Below, one piece after another: positions 3,156-40,702 of a stretch of DNA of 40,716 nt (position 1 is its first letter; each line of letters opens with the position of its first letter). A program made the translations under genes and the position numbers. The notes beneath the pieces are model-generated. The model searched no databases. It saw nothing but the letters and a program-made list of their open reading frames with translations, and was not told the origin of the DNA. Source of the stretch: Rhizobiales bacterium Ga0077524 (GTDB lineage Bacteria > Pseudomonadota > Alphaproteobacteria > Rhizobiales > Hyphomicrobiaceae); assembly GCA_001464755.1 (NCBI GenBank), contig LNDR01000401.1:1-40716 (forward strand), in the 5' to 3' direction.

Positions 3156-4034
3156 ATGGGCCGGATCGAGATCGGTGTGATCGCATTCCTCTGCTGGGGC
3201 ATGATTTTCGCGAGCCCGGCAGATTTGGCCGCTCAACCCGTCCCTGCCGGATTTGAGAGCGTTGACATCCCGGTGACAGGGGAGAGAGCGGCCACGATCA
3301 AGGCCTACTTGCGCAAACCGGCTTCCAATCAGGCCGTGCCAGCGGTCGTGGCACTGCACGGATGCGGCGGTCTGTTCCGAAGAGATGGGCGTCTTGCGGC
3401 GAGGGATGCCGATTGGGCTGAGCGCCTCGCCGAACTCGGGTATGCAGTGATGTTTCCGGACAGCTTCAATCCGCGCGGTTTCAGAGAGATTTGCACCAGC
3501 ACGGGGGACGTCCGGCCGATCCGCCCTCGGCATCGCGTGGCCGATGCGATCGCTGCCACCTCCTGGCTCGCGCGGCAGCCGTTCATCGACGGTAATCGAA
3601 TTGCACTGATCGGCTGGTCCAATGGAGGCACGACCGTTCTCATGGCGGCCGACAAGCCGCAACTCGCAAAGTCAGCAGTTGGGTTGCGAGCGGCGATAGC
3701 CTTCTATCCAGGGTGCCGTCTGCCGGCCGAGCGCGCCGACTATTCCGTCGGACTGCCGTTGACGATCTTGATCGGGAGCGACGACGACTGGACGCCTCCG
3801 GAGCCATGTCGCGAGTTGGCCAAGCGCCCAGGCATCAAGCTGATCGAGTATCCGGGGGCCGCGCATGGTTTCGACGCGCCCAACTCGCCGCGCCGCACCA
3901 GACGTGGTGTCGGACTCTCCGCACGCGGCGACGGTGAGGTTCAGATCGGGACCGACCCGGCGGCGCGGGCCTCAGCCATCGAAACGGTGCTGGGCATCCT
4001 GACCGATGCCTTCGCGAAGGCACCGCCTCGGTAA
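3156..4034 (+). CDS. Exported dienelactone-hydrolase-family alpha/beta hydrolase
   Basis: About 292 aa. An N-terminal signal peptide ('VIAFLCWGMIFASPADLAAQ', residues about 8-27) is followed by an alpha/beta-hydrolase domain of the DLH type: oxyanion segment 'HGCGG' (68-72), nucleophile elbow G-W-S-N-G-G (S155), an acid in 'DDDW' (209-212) and a histidine in 'AAHGFD' (H238). Classical dienelactone hydrolases use Cys as nucleophile; this one has Ser, so an esterase role on an unknown ester or lactone in the periplasm is more likely. Two ATGs compete: 3150 overlaps the GGGAG site, whereas 3156 sits about 7 nt after it and is preferred. It is separated from atpF by the terminator and converges on the lactonase gene 13 nt away. 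Confidence 0.8.
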   Translation: MGRIEIGVIAFLCWGMIFASPADLAAQPVPAGFESVDIPVTGERAATIKAYLRKPASNQAVPAVVALHGCGGLFRRDGRLAARDADWAERLAELGYAVMFPDSFNPRGFREICTSTGDVRPIRPRHRVADAIAATSWLARQPFIDGNRIALIGWSNGGTTVLMAADKPQLAKSAVGLRAAIAFYPGCRLPAERADYSVGLPLTILIGSDDDWTPPEPCRELAKRPGIKLIEYPGAAHGFDAPNSPRRTRRGVGLSARGDGEVQIGTDPAARASAIETVLGILTDAFAKAPPR

Positions 4035-4047
4035 ACCACTCCGCCGA

Positions 4048-4875
4048 TCAGTGGCTTTCGGGGAAGTCAGGGGCGGGCCCGGTCGGTGCCACGTCGAGGC
4101 GGACGACGGCGCCAGCCAGCGAAGGCTTCGGCGGCTCGTATTCCTTCATGACGTGCGGGTCGTGCCCCGGAATGATGTGGCGGGCGGATGGCGCCAGCTT
4201 GCGCACGACCTTATAGCTGTCGAGCATCTCGCCAATATGAAAGGCCGTCATGAAGAGACGATCCTTCATGATGTGCTCGTAGTAGTGCGTCGCGTCCGAA
4301 GCGAGCACGACCCAGCCACGCTTGGTATGGACGCGCGCCACCTGCAGGCCGTCGGCGTGGCCCGGCGCCGGGTGCAAGGTGATGCCGGGCGCGATCTCGA
4401 CCATGCCCTCGTGCATCTCGACGCGGCCCTTGAAATTGAGCCGCACCATGTCGACCACGTCCTCGACGTGATAGCTATGGCCGGGCTTCGAATAGCGCAT
4501 GTACTTCCCTGTGGCGTAGGCCATCTCGCGCGCCTGGATGTGGAAGCGCGCCTTCGGAAATGCGCCGAGATTTCCAGCGTGGTCGTAGTGCATATGGCTG
4601 ACGATCACATCGTTAACGTCGCGGGCATCGACGCCGACGAGCTTCAGGCTCTCGATGGGGCAGCGGAGGAAGATGCGTTTGCGCTCCTTCGCCATTTCGG
4701 CGGTGAAGCCGAGGTCCATAACGATAGCGCCGGCCGGGCCTGTGATGACCCAGACGAAATAGTCCATCGGCATCGGGCTCTCGTGCGGATCGCCGCCGAT
4801 GAAGTGCTCGCGGCGGATCGCATCGCGCGTGGCGTAGCGGATGGCGTGGATCTCGTACTCGGGGAGCTTGGTCAT
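4048..4875 (-). CDS. Metallo-beta-lactamase-fold hydrolase, N-acyl-homoserine-lactonase-like
   Basis: A 275-aa dinuclear-zinc hydrolase. All metal ligands are visible: H94-x-H96-x-D98-H99 in 'SHMHYDHAGN', H173 in 'PGHADG', D194 in 'ASDATHYY' and H238 in 'IPGHDP'. This layout and the length match the AttM/AiiB lactonase group, which opens homoserine-lactone or gamma-butyrolactone rings. There is no signal peptide, so it is cytoplasmic. The ATG at 4875 has GGAGGA about 10 nt upstream; the frame is open to 5037 but that extension is low-complexity and unlike the family. It shares strand with the racemase-fold gene but is separated by 245 nt. Substrate is unknown; quorum quenching cannot be assumed. 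Confidence 0.78.
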   Translation of the reverse strand: MTKLPEYEIHAIRYATRDAIRREHFIGGDPHESPMPMDYFVWVITGPAGAIVMDLGFTAEMAKERKRIFLRCPIESLKLVGVDARDVNDVIVSHMHYDHAGNLGAFPKARFHIQAREMAYATGKYMRYSKPGHSYHVEDVVDMVRLNFKGRVEMHEGMVEIAPGITLHPAPGHADGLQVARVHTKRGWVVLASDATHYYEHIMKDRLFMTAFHIGEMLDSYKVVRKLAPSARHIIPGHDPHVMKEYEPPKPSLAGAVVRLDVAPTGPAPDFPESH

Positions 4876-5120
4876 GGGGCGGAGTCCTCCGGGGCGGCAT
4901 CGCTGGCGGAATTGTCGCCGCCAAGACCGCGCCGCGCAACCGGCGCCAGGTGGGAGCAAGAGTTCGGCTCGCGGCGCGCGCAATTTATCGTCAACGCCGC
5001 CGCCGCCCGCTAAGCGCGCCTTGCCGGCCGCCCTCATGTCTCTCGTTCACGACTGTTTTGAACCAGCGCAAATTTCCGCGGCCGGGTCTGTCCGGTATCA
5101 GGCCTCCCAAACATCACGCT

Positions 5121-5918
5121 TCAGCGTTCGAAAAGGCTGCCGTAGCCATCGATGCGCACGTGCACGCCCGACAATCTCAGGCCATGCCAGAGGCTCACCT
5201 GGTTGGCGGTCAGGACAGGGCGCTTCAGGTCCTGCTCGAGCGTGTCGATGATGCCGACGCAGCGCAAGCCGGTTCCAGCGATGTAGATGCCGTCGGCGTC
5301 GGCCGGGCAGGCGGCACGGATCTGGGCGTAGAGCGGCTCGGTCTCCTGCTCGAAGCCCATGCCTTGGGGGTAGAGTTCGGCGAACGGCACATCGCGCCAT
5401 TTGCGGCCGGGGTCATAGCGCAAATGGCCAGCGGGTGCGAAGCTTCGCGCAGTGTAGTAGGCAATGCCGGCCGCGACGGTGGCGTCATTGAACCATGCTG
5501 GAAAGACGACGAAGGGGCGCTTGATGCCCAAGGCTTTGAGCGCGGCGAGGCTGTCGAGGCCGTTGGTGGTGGCTTTCGTGCCGTGTGCGAGGAGCGGGGT
5601 CATGGCGGCCACGACGGCTTCATCCCAGCCTTCGCCACCGAGGATGCTCGACGAGCTGTGGCCGATCACGGCGACCGAGAGGCGCATGGCGGCGAACTGG
5701 CGGCAGCCGCGCGCCAAGTCGTCCTCGAGATCGACGGCGCTGCGATCGTCGCGCCATTTGGCCCAGGGAGCGCGGGCCGTCACCCGCGCAGCGTGGACTG
5801 AGATGCCGGAGCGCGGCGGCACGAGCGCCCACCATTCAGCCTCGGGCACGACCTCGTTGCCGACGATGAACATGCCGATGCGGGCACGCCAGCCCCAATT
5901 GTCGGTCTGGTGAGACAT
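5121..5918 (-). CDS. Asp/Glu racemase-fold protein (maleate isomerase / arylmalonate decarboxylase-like)
   Basis: A 265-aa protein of the two-domain Asp/Glu racemase superfamily, judged from 'RIGMFIVGNEVVPEAEWW' at the N-terminus, 'VIGHSSSSILGG' (84-95) and 'ADGIYIAGTGLRCVGIIDTLE' (208-228). By eye the canonical cysteine of the first site (usual Y-x-C-T-S) is replaced by a His/Ser stretch, and the Ser-Cys-Thr-Asn of the second site reads Ala-Gly-Thr-Gly with a Cys five residues on (C220). Family members isomerise maleate, racemise amino acids or decarboxylate arylmalonates; the reaction here cannot be assigned. ATG 5918 has AAGGAG 8 nt upstream and is preferred to the ATG at 5939. Confidence 0.7.
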   Translation of the reverse strand: MSHQTDNWGWRARIGMFIVGNEVVPEAEWWALVPPRSGISVHAARVTARAPWAKWRDDRSAVDLEDDLARGCRQFAAMRLSVAVIGHSSSSILGGEGWDEAVVAAMTPLLAHGTKATTNGLDSLAALKALGIKRPFVVFPAWFNDATVAAGIAYYTARSFAPAGHLRYDPGRKWRDVPFAELYPQGMGFEQETEPLYAQIRAACPADADGIYIAGTGLRCVGIIDTLEQDLKRPVLTANQVSLWHGLRLSGVHVRIDGYGSLFER

Positions 5919-6015
5919 CGGCCATCGCTCCTTGTGCAACCGAGATGCTCTTCGTCAAGGGCAGCGCCACACCCGAAATGGGTTCAGCAGGCGCACAACC
6001 AACACGGCAAAGTCC

Positions 6016-6030
6016 CACACGTCGCGTGTG
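6016..6030. other. Short inverted repeat upstream of the racemase-fold gene
   Basis: CACACG, a 3-nt loop and CGTGTG lie between the tRNA 3' end and the racemase-fold start. It has no T-tract and may be an operator half-site pair or chance. I see nothing else in the 208-nt gap 5919-6126. Confidence 0.2.
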
Positions 6031-6126
6031 ACGGGAGACCGAGGTCGGCGCGGTGGCCGCGTTCCGCACTACTCGCGCTAGCACATTTCGAGCGCTTAAG
6101 AGTACGACTTAATTCTTTGGATTGAT

Positions 6127-6203
6127 TGGCGCGCCGGGAAGGATTCGAACCCACGACCTCCTGATCCGTAGTCAGGCGCTCTATCCAACTGAGCTACCGG
6201 CGC
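6127..6203 (-). tRNA. tRNA-Arg (anticodon ACG)
   Basis: A 77-nt cloverleaf read on the minus strand with encoded CCA. The acceptor stem GCGCCGG pairs with CCGGCGC, the D-arm is GCTC...GAGC, the anticodon arm is CCTGA-CTACGGA-TCAGG with ACG at positions 34-36, and the T-loop is TTCGAAT. A34 would be deaminated to inosine by TadA and read CGU, CGC and CGA. The T-stem GTGGG/CCTTC has one U-U mismatch and one G-U pair, slightly weaker than usual. Confidence 0.95.
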
Positions 6204-6207
6204 GCAC

Positions 6208-6224
6208 CCGGAGCGCAGCTCCGG
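6208..6224. other. 7-bp hairpin just 5' of the tRNA
   Basis: CCGGAGC-GCA-GCTCCGG lies four bases from the tRNA 5' end, in the 207-nt gap between the enolase-superfamily gene and the tRNA. No T-tract follows on either strand. It could be part of a tRNA precursor or a weak transcript end. Confidence 0.3.
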
Positions 6225-6410
6225 ACTTCCAGCGGAAGCCCCTACGAAAAGGGACCTCGGCAAGGAGGTTTCTCATAGTCGGTCGATTGGTCGTTTGCAA
6301 GGCGAAATGATGAAGACCGCATTGATGTGGCTTCGGCTTCACGATGCTCGACCGTCCCTCGGTCACGAACACTGAGGGGTTGAGGACGGCTGTCGGCCGA
6401 CGCTGCCCGT

Positions 6411-7520
6411 TCAGGCTGTCCTGTACCGGCGGATCATGTCGGCGTCCAGCTCCAGGCCGAAGCCGGGGCCACTCGTCACCGGCATTATGCCGCCCTTTGG
6501 AGAAGGCCGGTTGGCCCACATCCGCTGCCAAATCGGGTCGCGCTCGGGATCGGCAAAGCACTCGATGTACGTACCGTGCGGTACGGCCGACAGCAGGTGC
6601 TGCGCGATCTGGGATTCCTCGTGATGTGCGAGCTTAACTCCCGACGCCCAACAAAGTGCCGCCGAGCGTCGCCAGTCGGTGACGCCGCCGCACTCCGACA
6701 CGTCGACATTGACGAGATCCACGGCTTGCGCATCGAGCAGGCGCCGAACGCCATGGCTGGTGATCTCAGACTGCCCGGCGTTAACGGGCAAGCGGATCGC
6801 CTGACGGACGCGTGCCATTTGCGCGGCGTCGTCCGACCAATGGCAGGGCTCCTCGAACCAGGCGATGTCGAGCGGCTCGACCAGCCGGGCGAAACGGATC
6901 GCGTTCTCGGCGGACCAGCCGCGATTGGCATCGACAGCCAGGACGAAATCCGACCCGGCTGCCTTGCGGGCAGCCTCGACGCGCCTGGCGTCCTCCTCTG
7001 GCGCGAGCCCCCCGACCTTGAATTTGCAGCCTGCCATTCCGGCCGCGCGATACATCTCCATCTCGCGCCCGATGTCCCCGAGGGTTTTGCCCTCCATGTA
7101 GTAGCCGCCGATCGAGATGATGGGATTGTCGCGTCGATAGCCCCCAAGCAGCTCGCCGACGGTGCGTCCGACCGCTTTACCCATGACGTCCCAAACCGCG
7201 CAGTCGACGCAGGCGATCGCCTCGAGCAGCACCTTGCGATCGCCGTTCGCCGTGGTGAAGGCGAACATGGTCTCCCAGATGCGCTCGACCGCAAAAATGT
7301 CGAGTCCCTTCACTGCGGGCGCCAATACCTCGTGGATCAAGCGGCAGATCTCCGGACCGTCGGCCCGGTTGTCGCCGTTGTAGATCTCACTGACGAGGCC
7401 ACCCTCCGTCCGCAGTCGCGTCACCACCGTAGAGCGCTTCAACACGGAGTACGTGGCTCCGCCGAAATTGCGCGTGAGCGGGATGTCGACGGCGATCGCC
7501 TCTATCGAATGGATGCGCAT
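6411..7520 (-). CDS. Mandelate racemase / muconate lactonizing enzyme family protein (enolase superfamily)
   Basis: A 369-aa Mg-dependent enzyme that abstracts the proton alpha to a carboxylate. It has the capping domain (1-125) and a barrel with K166-x-K168 in 'CKFKVGG', metal ligands D197 ('VDANRGW') and E223/E224 ('WFEEP'), an 'AGQSE' segment (248-252) where many relatives have Gly-Glu, D273 in 'NVDVSE' and His in 'LAHHEE' (299-300). The KxK base plus His/Asp dyad is the mandelate-racemase subgroup layout, so acid-sugar dehydratase or hydroxy-acid racemase activity is likely; the substrate is not evident. It is the last gene of the Liv-type transporter operon, 62 nt after the binding protein, which suggests it acts on the imported solute. 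Confidence 0.85.
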   Translation of the reverse strand: MRIHSIEAIAVDIPLTRNFGGATYSVLKRSTVVTRLRTEGGLVSEIYNGDNRADGPEICRLIHEVLAPAVKGLDIFAVERIWETMFAFTTANGDRKVLLEAIACVDCAVWDVMGKAVGRTVGELLGGYRRDNPIISIGGYYMEGKTLGDIGREMEMYRAAGMAGCKFKVGGLAPEEDARRVEAARKAAGSDFVLAVDANRGWSAENAIRFARLVEPLDIAWFEEPCHWSDDAAQMARVRQAIRLPVNAGQSEITSHGVRRLLDAQAVDLVNVDVSECGGVTDWRRSAALCWASGVKLAHHEESQIAQHLLSAVPHGTYIECFADPERDPIWQRMWANRPSPKGGIMPVTSGPGFGLELDADMIRRYRTA

Positions 7521-7582
7521 GACGGTTCCTCACACGAGCGCATTTCTCCCCACGCCCGCATTTGAGCATGGGGAGACATGGC

Positions 7583-8839
7583 TCACTTCTTGACCCAGAT
7601 CGGCTTCTTGACCGCAGCCGCCTCGGGGAAAACCGTGACCGGCACGCCGCCTTGCCATTGTACGAAGACGATCTCGGCACCGACGCGACGGCCCTTCTCG
7701 TCGAACTTCATGCCCCCGTTGCCACCGGGAAAGAACCTGCCCGAGCCGCCTTTCGTGTCGAGCTTGCGCATCGCATCGCCGACAGCCTTACGGTCTGCTT
7801 TGCCCGCGAGCTCGATCGCCTCGCGCATGACCATGATGTGGCCGTAGCTGCACAGCGGATCTTGAGACAGCCAAGGCTCGCCGGTCTCCTTCTTGAACTC
7901 CTCCTCGAGCATCTCCTGCCCCTTGCCCGGCCAATTGGCTATCGAGAAGATGAGCCCTTCCAGCAGGTCCTTTCCGAGCAGATTCAGGATCTCGGGGGTG
8001 CCTAGCGGCGCGCCGTTCGAGACGACAGGCAGGCGGCCCTTGCTGAGCCCGAACTCGTTCATTTTCTCGAGCAGCAATTTGTAGTCGCTGAGCGCCGTCG
8101 GCAACATGAGCAACAGCTCGGGACGCGCCGACCTCAGCTTCTGCACGAGCGGCGTGGCGTCAGCGAGCGGTGGCGTGAAGACGTCGTCCGAGACGACCTT
8201 CAAACCCATCTTCTCGAGGCCACCCGCCCGCAGGTCCTTGGTGAAGGCAACCGGCGAGGCCGTATTGTCGTTGATGACCGAGATGGTCTTGGGCCTCTTG
8301 CCCGTCTCTTTCTCGGCGAGGTTGAGAGCCGTCGTCATCGTCTCACCGGCCATGAAGCTCGCAGGCAGAGAGGTCTGGAAGACGTTCTTGAACCCCCGCA
8401 GCGTCAGCTGATCGGAGTAGGAAAGCGTCAGCCAGGGAAGTTCGGCACGCTCCGTCACCTCGGTGATCGCGAGCGAGAACGACGAGAGCCACGAGCCGAC
8501 ACCGGCAACGACGTCCGGCTCGGATGAGACGAGCCGTTGTGCGGCATTCTTGGCTTTCTCAGCGCTGTCGCCGGCGTCCATCACGACGAGCTTCAGTTTC
8601 GCGCCGCCGAGGGATTTGATGCCGCCTTCCGCATTGATGTGCTTGATTGCGAGATCAGCGCCCATTTTCTTCAAGGCACCCTGGCGGGCCCACGGCCCTG
8701 ACAACGGGGCGATGAGTGCGACCTTCACCTCTTGGACTTGAGCGAGCGCCAAGCGCGAGGGCCCGAAAGCAATGGCAGCTGACCCGGCCAGGCCTGTCTG
8801 CAGTACGGTCCGACGCGAGGGCTTCAGAAGTCGGGTCAT
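7583..8839 (-). CDS. Branched-chain amino-acid-type ABC transporter substrate-binding protein
   Basis: A 418-aa periplasmic binding protein of the Leu/Ile/Val (type I) family. The N-terminus has a twin-arginine-like signal ('SRRTVLQTG' and a hydrophobic stretch ending about 'LALAQ', residues 8-34), followed by the family opening 'VKVALIAPLSGPWARQG' and later 'VVAGVGSWLSSF' and 'VISVINDN' strands. ATG 8839 has GGAGGA upstream; the longer frame to 8884 has no support. It sits in the same-strand series livH, livMG, livF, binding protein, enolase-family enzyme. Liv-type binding proteins take amino acids, aromatic acids, urea or amides, so the ligand cannot be stated; the enolase-family neighbour favours a carboxylic acid. 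Confidence 0.88.
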   Translation of the reverse strand: MTRLLKPSRRTVLQTGLAGSAAIAFGPSRLALAQVQEVKVALIAPLSGPWARQGALKKMGADLAIKHINAEGGIKSLGGAKLKLVVMDAGDSAEKAKNAAQRLVSSEPDVVAGVGSWLSSFSLAITEVTERAELPWLTLSYSDQLTLRGFKNVFQTSLPASFMAGETMTTALNLAEKETGKRPKTISVINDNTASPVAFTKDLRAGGLEKMGLKVVSDDVFTPPLADATPLVQKLRSARPELLLMLPTALSDYKLLLEKMNEFGLSKGRLPVVSNGAPLGTPEILNLLGKDLLEGLIFSIANWPGKGQEMLEEEFKKETGEPWLSQDPLCSYGHIMVMREAIELAGKADRKAVGDAMRKLDTKGGSGRFFPGGNGGMKFDEKGRRVGAEIVFVQWQGGVPVTVFPEAAAVKKPIWVKK

Positions 8840-35512: not shown

Positions 35513-35569
35513 AACCTCCGTGATAGATTGCTCACCAATCGAGCTTGAGCGACTGTGGAGGTGCACGGA

Positions 35570-36574
35570 ATGTACACCCAGGCCCTGAACAGCAAGGACA
35601 CGGACGCGGTCGCGCGCCCCGAGGACGTCGCGCGCGTGGCCGTCTTCCAGTCGACCATCGACGCCGAGGACAAGATCGAGCCAAACGACTGGATGCCGGA
35701 CGGCTACCGGCGCACGCTCGTCCGCCAGATCTCGCAGCATGCCCATTCCGAGGTGATCGGCATGCAGCCTGAAGGCAACTGGATCACCCGCGCGCCCTCC
35801 TTGCGCCGCAAGGCGGCCCTTCTCGCCAAAATCCAGGATGAGGCCGGCCATGGCCTCTATCTCTATGCCGCCGCCGAGACGCTGGGAGTGTCCCGCGAGA
35901 CGTTTTATGAGCAGCTGCTCTCCGGCAAGGCCAAATACTCCTCGATCTTCAACTACCCGACCGAGACCTGGGCTGACATCGGCATCATCGGATGGCTGGT
36001 CGACGGCGCCGCCATCATGAACCAAATCCCGCTCTGCCGCTGCAGCTACGGCCCCTACGCTCGCGCCATGATCCGGGTGTGCAAGGAGGAGAGCTTCCAC
36101 CAGCGCCAGGGCTACGAGATCATGCTCACGCTCTGTCGCGGAACAGCCGCACAGAAGGCGATGGCGCAAGACGCCTTGAATCGCTGGTGGTGGCCGGCGC
36201 TGATGATGTTCGGCCCGTCCGACAAGGACAGCATGCATTCGGCCGATTCGACACGTTGGAAGATCAAGCGCTTCTCCAACGACGATCTCCGCCAGAAGTT
36301 CGTCGACGCGACAGTGCCCCAAGGCCATTTCCTCGGCCTCACGTTCCCGAACCCGAGCCTTAGTTATGACGAGGCATCCGGTCATTGGAATTACGGCGAG
36401 ATCGACTGGTCCGAGTTCAAGCGCGTCGTCGCTGGCGACGGCCCGATGAACAAGCAGCGCATCGCTCGCCGGCGGCAGACCGAGGCGGACGGCGCCTGGG
36501 TCCGCGAAGCCGCCATGGTCTATGCCGAGAAGCGCCGGCAACGTGCAGCGGCTGCCAAGGTCGCAGCGGAGTGA
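35570..36574 (+). CDS. paaA: Phenylacetyl-CoA 1,2-epoxidase catalytic subunit PaaA
   Basis: A 334-aa di-iron oxygenase subunit that epoxidises the ring of phenylacetyl-CoA. Ferritin-like iron-binding Glu-x-x-His motifs are seen in '[13 protein letters not shown]' (about residues 86-98) and '[12 protein letters not shown]' (about 172-183). The ATG at 35570 has GGAGG 8 nt upstream; an in-frame GTG at 35555 overlaps that site and is unlikely. First gene of paaABCDE, 5 nt before paaB. Length and motifs are those of active PaaA. Confidence 0.96.
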
Positions 36575-36579
36575 GGATC

Positions 36580-36870
36580 ATGACCGACAAAACGCCCATG
36601 CCCATCTGGGAGGTTTTCATCCGGGCCCGCTCGGGCCTGCCGCACAGGCATTGCGGCTCGGTGCATGCCCCGGACGCCACGATGGCCGTGCAGGCTGCCC
36701 GCGACGTTTATACCCGCCGTGGCGAGAGTGTTTCGATCTGGGTGGTGCCGTCCGCGGCGATCGTCGCATCCGATCCCAACGACAGGGACCAGTTGTTCGA
36801 GCCGACGTCGACCAAGGCCTACCGGCACCCGACGTTCTATGACATCCCCGACGAGGTTGGACACATGTAA
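36580..36870 (+). CDS. paaB: Phenylacetyl-CoA 1,2-epoxidase subunit PaaB
   Basis: A 96-aa small subunit thought to bridge the PaaA/PaaC core to the reductase. 'IWEVFIRARSGLPHRHCGSVHA' (over residues 9-30), 'AARDVYTRRGE' and 'IWVVPSAAI' are the conserved PaaB blocks. ATG 36580 is preceded by GTGAGGATC. It lies 5 nt after paaA. Confidence 0.95.
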   Translation: MTDKTPMPIWEVFIRARSGLPHRHCGSVHAPDATMAVQAARDVYTRRGESVSIWVVPSAAIVASDPNDRDQLFEPTSTKAYRHPTFYDIPDEVGHM

Positions 36871-36987
36871 CGCCGTGCAACCGGGAGTGCAGGAGCAAGG
36901 GAGTACGTGAACCCGAGTGGGCGACGCACTCGCGCGCTTCTGAATGTGCACACTCACGAGTTCACCCAACTCCAACGAGGCCCCCCA

Positions 36988-37740
36988 ATGTCCGCCGAGT
37001 TGACCGCGTACTCGATCTCACTCGCCGACGACGCCCTCGTGCTCGGACATCGGCTTTCGCAGTGGTCGAGCCTGGCGCCGACGCTGGAGGAGGACATTGC
37101 GCTTTCCAATCTGGCGCTCGATCTGATCGGTCAGGCGCGGCTATTCTATACGCTTGCCGGCGAGATCGAAGGCAAAGGGCGCAGCGAGGACGATCTCGGC
37201 TATTTCCGCGATGCTGGCGCGTTTCGAAACGTGCTGCTGGTCGAGTTGCCGAATGGCGATTTCGCCCACGCCATGGTGCGCCAGCTGATCTACGCGGCTT
37301 TCGCCCACCCCTATCTAGATGCGCTATCGCGCTCCGCCCATGCCGGGCTGGCCGAGATCGCCGCCAAGGCCGTGAAGGAGATGGCCTATCATGTGCGCCA
37401 TTCGGCCGAATGGGTGATCCGCCTCGGCGATGGGACAGACGAGAGCCGACGGCGGGCCATCGCGGCACTCGATGCCCTGTGGCCCTACGTCGATGAGCTG
37501 TTCGAGATGGACGGTGCCGAGAAGCAGCTAGTCGCAGCCGGCATCGCACCCGACCGCGCCGCGATCCGCCCGAGCTGGGATCGAACGATCGACCACGTCC
37601 TTCGCGAGGCGACGCTCGAGCGGCCTTCCATCGGCGCCAGCGCGACCGGCGGGAGGTCCGGCAATCACACTCCAGATCTCGCCGCAATGCTCGCCGACAT
37701 GCAAGTGCTGGCGCGCGCGCACCCGGGAGCGACATGGTGA
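36988..37740 (+). CDS. paaC: Phenylacetyl-CoA 1,2-epoxidase structural subunit PaaC
   Basis: A 250-aa ferritin-like subunit without the iron ligands that scaffolds PaaA. 'DDALVLGHRLSQW' (about 13-25), 'DIALSNLALDLIGQARLFY' and 'KEMAYHVRHSAEWVIRLGDGT' are diagnostic. The chosen ATG at 36988 gives the standard N-terminus. A GTG at 36907 with an AAGGGAG site would add 27 unusual residues; the 117-nt gap after paaB is wider than elsewhere in the operon. Its last codons overlap paaD. Confidence 0.95.
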   Translation: MSAELTAYSISLADDALVLGHRLSQWSSLAPTLEEDIALSNLALDLIGQARLFYTLAGEIEGKGRSEDDLGYFRDAGAFRNVLLVELPNGDFAHAMVRQLIYAAFAHPYLDALSRSAHAGLAEIAAKAVKEMAYHVRHSAEWVIRLGDGTDESRRRAIAALDALWPYVDELFEMDGAEKQLVAAGIAPDRAAIRPSWDRTIDHVLREATLERPSIGASATGGRSGNHTPDLAAMLADMQVLARAHPGATW

Positions 37741-38264
37741 TGGCAACGACGGCCACGAGCGCTTCAGGCAACCATCCTGACCCCGAGCTCGCACGCGCCC
37801 ACGCCGCTGCCGCCGCTGTGCCCGACCCCGAGATCCCTGTCGTGACCATCGACGACCTTGGCATGCTCCGCGGTGTCGAGCGCCGCGGCGACGGGACCAT
37901 CCTCGTGCGCCTGTCTCCGACCTACACCGGCTGCCCGGCAACGCTTCCAATCCGGCTCGACATAGAGACGGCACTGCTCGCCGCCGGTATCTCCGACGCT
38001 CGCGTCGAGATCGTACTCTCGCCCCCCTGGACCACCGACGACATCACCGAGGCCGGCCGGCGCAAGCTGCGCGACTACGGCATCGCACCGCCGCCGCCAC
38101 GTTCGTCGAAGGGGAGCCTGCTGTTCGGCAGCGATCCTGTCGCCTGTCCCCGATGCGAGTCTGTCGAGACGACGCGCATCTCGGAGTTCGGCTCCACGCC
38201 TTGCAAGGCGCTCTGGCGGTGCGAGCGCTGCCGCGAGCCGTTCGATGTCTTCAAGTGCCTTTGA
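37734..38264 (+). CDS. paaD: PaaD (Fe-S/di-iron maturation factor of the epoxidase)
   Basis: A 176-aa protein. An N-terminal MIP18/DUF59 domain ('DPEIPVVTIDDLGML', then 'TYTGCPAT') precedes a C-terminal zinc ribbon with C-P-R-C, 'STPCKALWRCERC' and 'FKC'. PaaD is needed for epoxidase maturation, probably cofactor loading. The ATG overlaps the paaC stop by 7 nt; a second ATG at 37740 is equally possible. Confidence 0.94.
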   Translation: MVMATTATSASGNHPDPELARAHAAAAAVPDPEIPVVTIDDLGMLRGVERRGDGTILVRLSPTYTGCPATLPIRLDIETALLAAGISDARVEIVLSPPWTTDDITEAGRRKLRDYGIAPPPPRSSKGSLLFGSDPVACPRCESVETTRISEFGSTPCKALWRCERCREPFDVFKCL

Positions 38265-38275
38265 GGGGATAGCCG

Positions 38276-39394
38276 ATGCACGACTTTCGTCCCCTCATCA
38301 TCGCGAGCACGCACCGTGAGACGGCCGAGGCACTCTCCGTCACGCTCGTCGTTCCCGAGGCCCTTCGCGCGGCGTTCCGGTTCCGGCCCGGTCAGCACCT
38401 GGCCTTCAGGGCCGTCCTCAACGGGGAGGAGCTTCGACGGACGTACTCGATCTGCTCAGGACCCGACGACCAACACCTCACCGTCACCATCAAGCGCGTT
38501 CCGGGAGGCCGCTTCTCAAGTTGGGCCGCCGAGACGCTGCATCCCGGCATGACCATCGATGCCATGCCGCCAGCTGGCCGTTTCGTCCTGGCCGAGACGC
38601 CGAGCGAGAAAACGCACATCCTCGCCTTCGCAGCCGGTGCTGGCATCACGCCGATCATGGCGATGGCCGAGCATGCGATGCGGCGCCAGCCCAGCAGTCG
38701 CTTCACGCTGATCTACGGCAACCGCGACGTGGACAGCATCATCTTTCGCGAGCGGCTCGAGAACCTGAAGGACAGCCACCTGGATCGCTTTGCGCTGTTG
38801 CACGTTCTCTCCCGCAACGAGGAGACCGACACGCCACTGCTCGAGGGTCGCATCACGGCTGACAAGGTGAGCGCCTTCGCGGGCCACATCTTCGATGTTC
38901 GCGATATCGACCAAGCCTTCCTCTGTGGCCCCGGGACCATGATCCGCGAGGTGCGCAACGCCCTCATCGCGCTCGGCATGCCGCGTGAGAGGGTTCACCA
39001 CGAGTTCTTCGCCCCAGCCGCAGGGACACAGGCTCGCACCGGTACCGCCGAGACTGCGAGACCCGGCGGCACGCTCGCGGCACCGTCACCCGGCAACACT
39101 CCCACGGCTGGCCAACAGACGGACATTGTCGCCATCGTCGACGGCAAGCGCCATCGCTTCACTGCACGTCCCGGCGAGGTCGTCGTCGATGCAGCTCTGC
39201 GAGCGGGCGTCCGCGCTCCCTACGCCTGCAAGGGCGGCATGTGCTCGACATGCCGCGCGCGTGTGGTCGAAGGGCGCGTCACGATGCGGGTCAACTACAG
39301 CCTGGAGCCCTGGGAGATCGAGAAAGGCTTCGTGCTCACCTGTCAGGCCCTCGCCGAGACCGATCGCCTCGTCGTCGATTACGATCAGATGTGA
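38276..39394 (+). CDS. paaE: Phenylacetyl-CoA 1,2-epoxidase reductase subunit PaaE
   Basis: A 372-aa electron-transfer subunit. The FAD domain has 'RRTYSICSG' (about 54-62), the NAD(P)H domain has 'FAAGAGITPIMAMAEHAM' (about 118-135) and the C-terminal plant-type ferredoxin has C-x4-C-x2-C ('CKGGMCSTC', about 317-325) plus the last Cys in 'VLTCQALA'. A Thr/Pro/Gly-rich linker (about 244-283) joins reductase and ferredoxin. Starts 11 nt after paaD and ends the epoxidase operon; the later paa genes (isomerase, hydrolase, ligase) are not in the window. The next gene is convergent. Confidence 0.95.
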   Translation: MHDFRPLIIASTHRETAEALSVTLVVPEALRAAFRFRPGQHLAFRAVLNGEELRRTYSICSGPDDQHLTVTIKRVPGGRFSSWAAETLHPGMTIDAMPPAGRFVLAETPSEKTHILAFAAGAGITPIMAMAEHAMRRQPSSRFTLIYGNRDVDSIIFRERLENLKDSHLDRFALLHVLSRNEETDTPLLEGRITADKVSAFAGHIFDVRDIDQAFLCGPGTMIREVRNALIALGMPRERVHHEFFAPAAGTQARTGTAETARPGGTLAAPSPGNTPTAGQQTDIVAIVDGKRHRFTARPGEVVVDAALRAGVRAPYACKGGMCSTCRARVVEGRVTMRVNYSLEPWEIEKGFVLTCQALAETDRLVVDYDQM

Positions 39395-39484
39395 CGACGG
39401 CGGCGCCTCGTCGAGGAACACCAGCGTGCGCGCAAGCGAAGTTGCCGGTGCGTGGGCGTCAGCCCCAGTTGGTGGTTTGTTTGG

Positions 39485-40702
39485 TCATCGGGCTCGCGTC
39501 TCCGTCCGGGCGCCGGCGCCCTTCGCCTCGACCACGCCGTCGGCCACGAGCCGGTCGATCTCGGTGGCGGACATGCCGAGTTCGGCCAGCACCGCGCGGG
39601 AGTGCTCGCCAACGAGCGGGCTGTGACTGAGGCGATGGCCCGTGGCGGGTGCCGGCTGGCCGGCGACGGACGCCATGGGCACGCGACCCAGCGTCGGATC
39701 GTCGACCCAGGTGAGCGCGCCAACGGCCTTCACCTGCGGGTTCTCGAAGAGGTCCTGATGGGTGTGGATAGCGCCGTGCAGCACGTCGATGCTCGCGAAC
39801 GCGCGGCACCACTCGGCGGTGGTGCGCGTTTCGATGATCGGGCGGATCAGGGCCATCAGCGCTTCGCCGTTGGCGACGCGCAGACGCGGGTCGGCAAAGC
39901 GTGGATCGGCGATCCACTCCTCGTGGCCGAGGAGGCGCGCGAAGCGCTCGAACTGTGGCTGGCGACGAGCATTGATCGACATGTAGCCGTCGCTGGTCGT
40001 GAAGGCGCCGACGGGCATGCCGATCGGCTCCACGGCGCCCTTCTGGAGGTGCGACTCGATGATTGCCGCCTCCTGCAGCACCAACGCCGATTCAAGCAGG
40101 CTCGTCTTGATGTAGGCGCCCTTGCCCTTCATGGCCTTGCGATAGAGCGCGGCCGAGACCGCCTGGAAGGCGTAGAGCCCCGTCGAGAAGTCGAGCGCCA
40201 GCATGTTGACGCGCTGGGGCATGCCGTCCTTGTCGCGATTGATGGACATGAAGCCGGTGAAGGCCTGCATGACGCTGTCGGTCGCGGGCAGCTCGGCATT
40301 GGGGCCCTCGGTGCCGAAGCCCGTGACCCAGGCGTAGACGACGGCGGGATTGGTCTTGCTGAGCGTGGGGTAGTCGAGGCCGAACGGGTCGATCTTGCCG
40401 ATGCGGTAGTTGTGAATGACGACGTCGGCCTGGTCGGCGAGGCGGCGCGCGATGGCCACGCCCGCCGGCTTCTTGAGGTCGAGCGCAAGGCTGCGCTTGC
40501 CGCGATGCACGACGAGCGAGTGCGCGGTGTGATCGCCGACCGACTTGCCGAGCTGACGGCTCCAGCAGCCGGCGCCCATCGGCTCGAGCTTGACGACGTC
40601 GGCGCCGTTGCGCGCGAGATGCATGGCGCAGTAGGGGCCGGCAACGCCCTGGCTCAGGTCCAGCACCCGCACACCCTCGAACGGCAGGTCGTCAGTGGTC
40701 AT
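39485..40702 (-). CDS. CaiB/BaiF-family (class III) CoA transferase
   Basis: A 405-aa family III CoA transferase. 'VRVLDLSQGVAGPYCAMHLA' opening (11-30), 'GADVVKLEPMGAG' (33-45), 'HRGKRSLALDLKKP' (66-79) and the catalytic Asp in 'ATDSVMQAFTG' (D142) are typical. It is only distantly like the one at 12628. The ATG at 40702 follows GGAACCCACCC read on the minus strand, a weak ribosome site, and the window ends 14 nt beyond. Convergent with paaE; the partner acid is unknown. Confidence 0.9.
   Translation of the reverse strand: MTTDDLPFEGVRVLDLSQGVAGPYCAMHLARNGADVVKLEPMGAGCWSRQLGKSVGDHTAHSLVVHRGKRSLALDLKKPAGVAIARRLADQADVVIHNYRIGKIDPFGLDYPTLSKTNPAVVYAWVTGFGTEGPNAELPATDSVMQAFTGFMSINRDKDGMPQRVNMLALDFSTGLYAFQAVSAALYRKAMKGKGAYIKTSLLESALVLQEAAIIESHLQKGAVEPIGMPVGAFTTSDGYMSINARRQPQFERFARLLGHEEWIADPRFADPRLRVANGEALMALIRPIIETRTTAEWCRAFASIDVLHGAIHTHQDLFENPQVKAVGALTWVDDPTLGRVPMASVAGQPAPATGHRLSHSPLVGEHSRAVLAELGMSATEIDRLVADGVVEAKGAGARTETRAR

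Follow-up and report, generated by a model that had tools for sequence, protein, structure and literature searches.

The gene at 5121-5918 on the minus strand of the 40,716-nucleotide stretch of Rhizobiales bacterium Ga0077524 DNA analysed here (the window) encodes a protein with the Asp/Glu racemase fold, in which the slots of the two canonical catalytic cysteines are taken, by profile alignment, by a histidine (His87) and a glycine (Gly215). The protein belongs to a clade in which this pair is invariant. Judging from sequence conservation, a predicted structure and the analogy with arylmalonate decarboxylase (AMDase), we consider it close to an even chance that these proteins are single acid/base enzymes, in which His87 would transfer a proton from the face opposite to that of AMDase Cys188. 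A somewhat more tentative reading goes further. The clade may be a natural mirror of AMDase, with a Cys-free active site and one invariant His tuned by Glu22 for cofactor-free, stereospecific proton transfer, and thiol chemistry would then not be essential to the fold.

The reading frame starts with the ATG at 5918 (residue 1 = 5916-5918) and ends with the stop at 5121, giving a protein of 265 aa. On the plus strand, the same interval in this register contains an internal stop. Cys72, Cys204 and Cys220 are the only cysteines of the protein. The Pfam Amdase model (PF17645) matched with 30.4 bits, which passed the gathering cut-off of 25.9, over the C-terminal residues 204-263 only. The best NCBIfam match, EutA (ectoine_eutA), reached 54 bits, far below its cut-off of 318, and the NCBIfam model for AMDase (arylmal_decarb) reached 32.8 bits, far below its cut-off of 225.

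The fold was predicted with AlphaFold2 from 57 aligned sequences (the window and 56 of the best 80 of 146 related loci), and the model had a mean pLDDT of 92.2 and a pTM of 0.90. In a VIA-align comparison, the maleate isomerases ranked at the top (2xed, Z 29.5, rmsd 1.9 over 231; 4fq5, Z 29.3), followed by AMDase (3ixl, Z 26.7, rmsd 2.0 over 224), 4ix1 (Z 25.9) and 2dgd (23.4), after which the score dropped to 16.3 for the allantoin racemases. Ordered by E-value, the Foldseek matches were led by 4ix1, and AMDase and maleate isomerase came shortly after. The initial annotation had proposed an Asp/Glu-racemase fold; the model bears this out, with its two-domain pseudo-symmetric architecture and Z values of 25.9-29.5 to the maleate isomerases, AMDase and 4ix1, and on this model the protein is a member of the maleate isomerase/AMDase branch of the Asp/Glu racemase superfamily.

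The two motifs on which the initial annotation had rested, I85-G-H-S-S-S-S91 (site 1, 5646..5666, minus strand) and A214-G-T-G-L-R-C220 (site 2, 5259..5279, minus strand), were confirmed letter for letter by translation. A profile built from 57 clade members only was aligned with the chain of the AMDase mutant G74C/C188S (3ixl), and it matched His87 (5658-5660) to Cys74, Gly215 (5274-5276) to Ser188 and Cys220 (5259-5261) to Thr193. On known chains the same profile found Gly/Cys in wild-type AMDase, Cys/Cys in the maleate isomerase 4fq7 and Gly/Gly in 4ix1. In the maleate isomerase 2xec the first Cys fell in slot 1, and the slot 2 region had two adjacent Cys, of which one took the slot and its neighbour a one-residue insertion; this doubt of one residue is harmless, since neither 214 nor 216 is a Cys in the target. 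A wider profile of the clade and 13 outside relatives gave the same slots for His87 and Gly215. The phmmer pairwise alignment with wild-type AMDase dissents in placing His87 opposite a one-residue gap, and was given less weight. In the model, His87 and Gly215 each lie two residues past a strand end (strands 82-85 and 210-213), consistent with the profile alignments. The claim that neither canonical Cys is present therefore held, and a search by profile alignment for Cys72, Cys204 or Cys220 in a canonical position, which would speak against the claim, placed all three outside the slots.

With His87 and Gly215 in the slots, the two catalytic Cys of maleate isomerase are both missing. The AMDase arrangement, with Cys188 as donor and Gly74 opposite, is also absent, as Gly215 stands at 188 and His87 at 74. 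An acid/base residue at both slots, as in the two-base racemases of glutamate, aspartate, hydantoin and allantoin, was not found either, because Gly215 was present in 93/93 homologues.

Further positions of the predicted pocket were compared by profile alignment. The AMDase dioxyanion-hole positions T75 and S76 correspond to Ser88 and Ser89 of the target, which were Ser or Thr in 93/93 homologues. For the other two dioxyanion-hole positions, Y126 and G189, Trp142/Phe143 were found near Tyr126 and Thr216 at G189. Trp142 (5493..5495, minus strand; 93/93) lies in a two-residue insertion beside the Tyr slot, and either residue 142 or residue 143 may replace the Tyr. Glu22 (5853..5855, minus strand; Glu in 93/93) falls in the slot of Asn14 of the Nocardia farcinica maleate isomerase, an Asn numbered here by counting from Cys76; Glu22 is a candidate partner of His87. 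An equation of Glu22 with what we take to be Asp10 of glutamate racemase was dropped, as the spacing from the Gly of the first strand does not fit. Gln191 (5346..5348, minus strand; 93/93) is near what is presumably the second Asn slot of maleate isomerase, in a gappy part of the alignment. An insertion at about residues 165-185 (RYDPGRKW..., 5364..5426, minus strand) was not seen in the 13 outside relatives; its P170 and W174 are invariant in the clade, and it is possibly a lid.

To describe the clade, we name each protein by its residues at site 1 and site 2, H/G standing for His and Gly. In the order of the target, a match of at least 55% identity was found in 12/397 genomes. Sequences from the order, from the family and from 80 genome-contig loci, 98 in all, were aligned; 93 were distinct and 73 remained at less than 90% mutual identity. 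The 80 loci had been found with the peptides VPEAEWW and G[VI]S[VI]HAARV and were the best 80 of 146 matching stretches, a choice that favours near relatives. Going by their titles, 77 of these best 80 came from Alphaproteobacteria, one from a Gammaproteobacterium and two from Proteobacteria only; many were metagenome bins, and the alphaproteobacterial hosts included Reyranella, Nisaea, Thalassobaculum, Enhydrobacter aerosaccus and Hyphomicrobium.

Fifty positions were invariant in the 93 distinct homologues, both motif loops included, and some of the fifty lie inside the search peptides. Among them were E22, H87, S90, W98, D99, N119, W142, W174, Q191, C204, G215, T216, G217, R219, C220, N239 and Q240. 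Since two peptides were used for the search, the selection itself accounts for part of the invariance at residues 24-30 and 38-46; E22, H87, S90, W142, Q191, G215, T216, G217 and R219 all lie outside these stretches and were also kept in 73/73 of the sequences at less than 90% mutual identity. Cys72 was kept in 40/93 homologues only, as against 93/93 for H87, G215 and C220, and the His87/Gly215 pattern is therefore more than chance. Ser88 and Ser89 alternated with Thr across the 93 homologues, and Ser90 was invariant. Rough NG86 estimates of dN/dS for the target were 0.114 and 0.103 against the homologues L034 and L035 and 0.189 and 0.24 against L049 and L060, with dS above 1 throughout and near saturation. 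By these sequence comparisons the protein is under constraint.

The occupancy of the two slots was surveyed in 163 distinct rows (173 less 10 duplicates); as the searches were seeded with the H/G family, this is not a fair sample. The pairs were C/C in 92 rows, H/G in 30, G/C in 21, I/G in 5, M/G in 5, L/G in 3 and Q/G in 2, with F/G, C/G, C/D, R/C and G/G in one row each. Nine of the 30 H/G rows were representatives chosen from the 80 loci. All 30 were at least 55% identical to the target; the best non-H/G row reached 36%, and His at site 1 was found in no non-H/G row of the 163. The Trp142 column was a gap in 21/21 G/C rows and 92/92 C/C rows.

Trees were built with both motif stretches excluded, and the root was not inferred. 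Long rows were also left out, namely L033, 4ix1 and 2dgd in the careful tree that held the F/G sequences, and these together with L027 in the other. Eighteen H/G rows formed one clade, with a support of 99 in the quick tree and 100/100 in the careful trees, so that the HSSSS/GTGLRC pattern does mark a clade of its own, a point that the initial annotation had put forward for checking. H/G grouped with F/G (L027 and four added sequences) as its sister (97/88). Next to these two came 11 G/C rows as a clade, the three together having a support of 98/80; AMDase proper lay outside this group. The F/G proteins, whose hosts include Streptomyces globosus and whose members also come from Microvirga and Vibrio plasmids, share with H/G the lack of Cys, the Gly at site 2, Trp-Phe at 142-143 and an acid at position 22 (Asp in 5/5), but have Phe instead of His at site 1 and Ala or Ser instead of Cys220. 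The simplest reading, which we offer as a proposal, is that the site 2 Cys disappeared in a common ancestor of H/G and F/G, after this had split from a G/C line, and that site 1 turned into His or Phe.

The H/G clade is not alone in being Cys-less in these alignments. A second Cys-less group has Ile, Met or Leu with Gly and motifs such as GISAESFWDG and VQVGTNL, and its 12 rows formed one branch elsewhere in the tree. A third has Gln or Leu with Gly and the motif IPGGNMPC, with 3 rows in yet another part of the tree. Both Cys were thus probably lost more than once in this fold. The genome of the target holds two more Cys-less paralogues, both of the Ile/Gly type (L004 and L233, on contigs C337 and C254), one of which directly adjoins a C/C paralogue (L002); one genome therefore carries several active-site designs of this fold.

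Two gene rows of related proteins were also recorded. On a Streptomyces globosus plasmid (NZ_CP030864.1, L237:2776-7786), the F/G protein is titled 'maleate cis-trans isomerase' and has as neighbours genes for an AMP-binding protein, an acyl carrier protein, ectoine synthase, an acyl-CoA dehydrogenase and a transglutaminase-family protein, a row that looks like a small biosynthetic cluster. On a Shinella sumterensis plasmid (CP132317.1, L235:7045-10542), a 79% relative of the G/C sister-clade row L019 sits in a TRAP transporter gene row, between the binding protein and permease genes.

In the mechanism that we propose, S88 and S89, in the 87-91 loop that follows strand 82-85, would bind the substrate carboxylate much as the dioxyanion hole of AMDase does. 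The sole general acid/base would be His87, with Glu22 perhaps tuning it, on the face opposite to that of AMDase Cys188; with Gly215 the other face would stay open. Such a one-sided arrangement with a single base would suit decarboxylation-protonation, a suprafacial proton shift or addition/elimination, and would be ill suited to two-base racemisation or thiolate-driven cis-trans isomerisation. Two-base racemisation is disfavoured in any case by the Gly at site 2 in 93/93 homologues. The initial annotation had offered either a Ser/His-based reaction or a shifted chemistry of Cys220. Its His option has become the better supported of the two, as the first Cys slot holds an invariant His. Less speaks for the Ser part: Thr can replace S88 and S89, whose counterparts in AMDase, T75 and S76, belong to the dioxyanion hole, which suggests binding rather than attack; S90 is invariant. 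Several points count against proton transfer by His87. The F/G sister clade has Phe at site 1, so the shared ancestor may have functioned without the His; an invariant His can serve substrate binding instead of acid/base chemistry; C220 and C204 are just as invariant; and the engineered AMDase that serves as the precedent has Cys at site 1 and started out 20,000-fold below the wild type in activity.

Among the alternatives, the one that survives best, unlikely though we hold it to be, is that catalysis falls to Glu22 as the base, with His87 confined to binding or orienting the substrate. An acid at position 22 and a Gly at site 2 are common to the two Cys-less sister clades, which differ at site 1 (His against Phe); Glu22 was found in 93/93 H/G sequences and Asp in 5/5 of F/G, the sister clade in the tree (97/88). 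His87 is equally invariant in the H/G clade, however, and an acid at position 22 is common in C/C proteins too (Asp in 42 and Glu in 6, together 48/92 rows), and it is therefore no special mark of His chemistry either.

We rate as improbable a shifted single-Cys chemistry, in which Cys220 would be the nucleophile or acid and would be reached through a change of the loop 214-219. Cys220 was kept in 93/93 homologues and lies five residues past the canonical slot. However, it aligned with Thr193 of AMDase and not with a catalytic Cys, and in the model it is the first residue of helix 220-231. At that position C/C rows most often had S, T or A, G/C rows T, G or S, and the I/G and M/G rows Met. The equally conserved Cys204 (5307..5309, minus strand; 93/93) lies in the model after helix 194-203 and ahead of strand 210-213, away from the strand ends that bear both sites. 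A disulfide between Cys204 and Cys220 was judged unlikely because of the strand between the two residues.

It is slightly less probable still that the protein is a non-catalytic binding, sensing or scaffolding protein in which the fold has been retained. Both known catalytic residues are gone, and the gene neighbours are not conserved; against this stand the 50 invariant positions, both motif loops among them, the low dN/dS, and the many homologue genes that adjoin hydrolases and importers.

The surroundings of the gene were of limited use. Downstream, at 4048..4875 on the minus strand (start uncertain), lies a gene for a lactonase-like hydrolase of the metallo-beta-lactamase fold (Lactamase_B, 71.7 bits), whose best NCBIfam match was the AttM lactonase with 66.7 bits, against a cut-off of 390. 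This gene also adjoins the target homologue in L035 (86% identical; same genome as L005), but not in L034, the nearest relative. Upstream on the minus strand are genes for a periplasmic binding protein, for an MR_MLE protein of the enolase superfamily and, by resemblance in the list of open reading frames, for a presumed branched-chain-type ABC importer. A tRNA-Arg(acg) gene lies between the target and the MR_MLE gene (6127..6203, minus strand; ARAGORN; Rfam tRNA, 65.3 bits at 6130-6203), and for this reason the idea that the target shares an operon with the genes for the importer, the binding protein and the MR_MLE protein was dropped. No tRNA gene was found beside the homologue in ten related loci scanned, and when 3900-7600 was scanned for promoters and terminators, nothing exceeded the level of shuffled sequence. 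Farther along the window, at 35555-40702, are genes that we take to be phenylacetyl-CoA epoxidase subunits (paa-type), then a presumed CaiB-type CoA transferase on the other strand.

When the window neighbours were compared with the open reading frames of the best 80 of 146 related loci, no pathway followed, and gene context was rejected as a guide to the substrate. Apart from the hydrolase gene, the matches were weak and general (in some loci ABC transporter parts, at 26-40% identity, and CoA transferases, at about 35%; in L101 an MR_MLE protein, at 26%), and the largest neighbour clusters of any kind covered 13 loci. No same-strand neighbour within 150 bases was found in 30/93 entries, a count in which the window and five other genomes appear twice, some loci end near the gene, and six loci were dropped where the gene caller had missed the target. 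A family tally was made for 59 of 117 operon-like neighbours longer than 120 aa, most of those from already annotated clusters being excluded, and 25 of its 45 families were listed. Among these were M20 peptidase (6), M20 dimerisation domain (4), peptidase C26, GATase, class V aminotransferase and M28 (3 each), and, with two each, hydantoinase B, hydantoinase A, dihydroxy-acid dehydratase, TctC, ring dioxygenase, CoA transferase, ABC ATPase and M42. Neighbours in other genomes included a luciferase-like monooxygenase, an alpha/beta hydrolase, amidohydrolase-2, an AtzE-like amidase, M20 amidohydrolases, a gamma-glutamyl hydrolase-like protein, BhcA-like aminotransferases, hydantoinase A/B, a dioxygenase, a dehydratase and several importer types. 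Housekeeping-looking genes were seen too, such as a dihydroorotase in L101 (438 bits, over its cut-off). These neighbours are consistent with the breakdown of diverse organic acids, often N-containing ones, but point no further; for the proposed His87 enzyme, the best guess at a substrate would be an organic acid from a catabolic pathway, perhaps one with nitrogen.

The least probable reading is a water-activating hydrolase, in which a Glu22-His87 pair would activate water against a lactone, imide or amide over a backbone oxyanion hole: amidases, M20 amidohydrolases, hydantoinase A/B and amidohydrolases occur among the neighbours, and a lactonase-like protein in the window, but these neighbours vary and may act on other bonds, and none of the 50 structures listed in the fold comparison is named a hydrolase.

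No close homologue with known activity was found in the PDB search, in NCBIfam or in the papers searched, nor did these papers, a set outside which most subscription journals lie, describe the H/G clade. The fold, the superfamily and Cys-less membership in it are already known; a His/Gly site in an invariant clade was not met in the papers searched. The superfamily is known for proton transfer by thiol or thiolate, and AMDase has been engineered for the making of chiral acids. If the proposed proton transfer by His87 is correct, these natural proteins, with their one His on the opposite face unchanged in 93 sequences, would offer a ready-made scaffold whose pKa, and perhaps stereochemistry, differs, and the fold would tolerate a swap of its catalytic residues. 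The labels 'Asp/Glu racemase' and 'maleate cis-trans isomerase' on such Cys-less proteins should not be trusted.

Compared with known systems, EutA of ectoine utilisation is the best NCBIfam match of the target and also of two tested proteins of the G/C sister clade (143 bits each, cut-off 318). Both of the latter stayed under the cut-off, and membership of that clade in EutA is not claimed; the cut-off was passed by one protein in 289 genomes, L244 (in the same place as survey row L208), which is C/C. The top phmmer match in the PDB was 4ix1 (OPAG_01669, Rhodococcus opacus), a solved structure of this fold titled only 'hypothetical protein', with no function given. Like the target it lacks both Cys, but it has Gly at both slots and no His, and in the quick tree it did not fall within H/G but sat on a long branch whose position is unsure. 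The maleate isomerases of Nocardia farcinica (2xec/2xed) and Pseudomonas putida (Iso, 4fq5/4fq7) gave the highest Z of the fold comparison. Relative to them, the target has lost both catalytic Cys, carries Glu22 in the Asn14 slot and has two insertions, the two-residue one that puts Trp142 beside the Tyr slot and the one at about 165-185.

AMDase of Bordetella bronchiseptica (3ixl, 3dtv, 2vlb) shares with the target the fold and a single candidate acid/base residue in the two slots. During AMDase turnover one carboxylate leaves the substrate, the enediolate is held in the dioxyanion hole and Cys188 protonates it (PMC12576825; motifs and residue roles, PMC4996985). AMDase has Gly74 and Cys188 (PMC4996985) where the target has His87 and Gly215, which would put the group on the other face and make it something other than a thiol. 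Moving the Cys to position 74 in the mutant G74C/C188S gave the opposite enantiomer with an activity initially 20,000-fold below that of the wild type, four more mutations raised the activity about 9,500-fold, and G74C/C188G and G74C/C188A were simulated (PMC12576825). The H/G clade has the mirror geometry of this engineered G74C/C188S enzyme, but with His at site 1 where the mutant has Cys.
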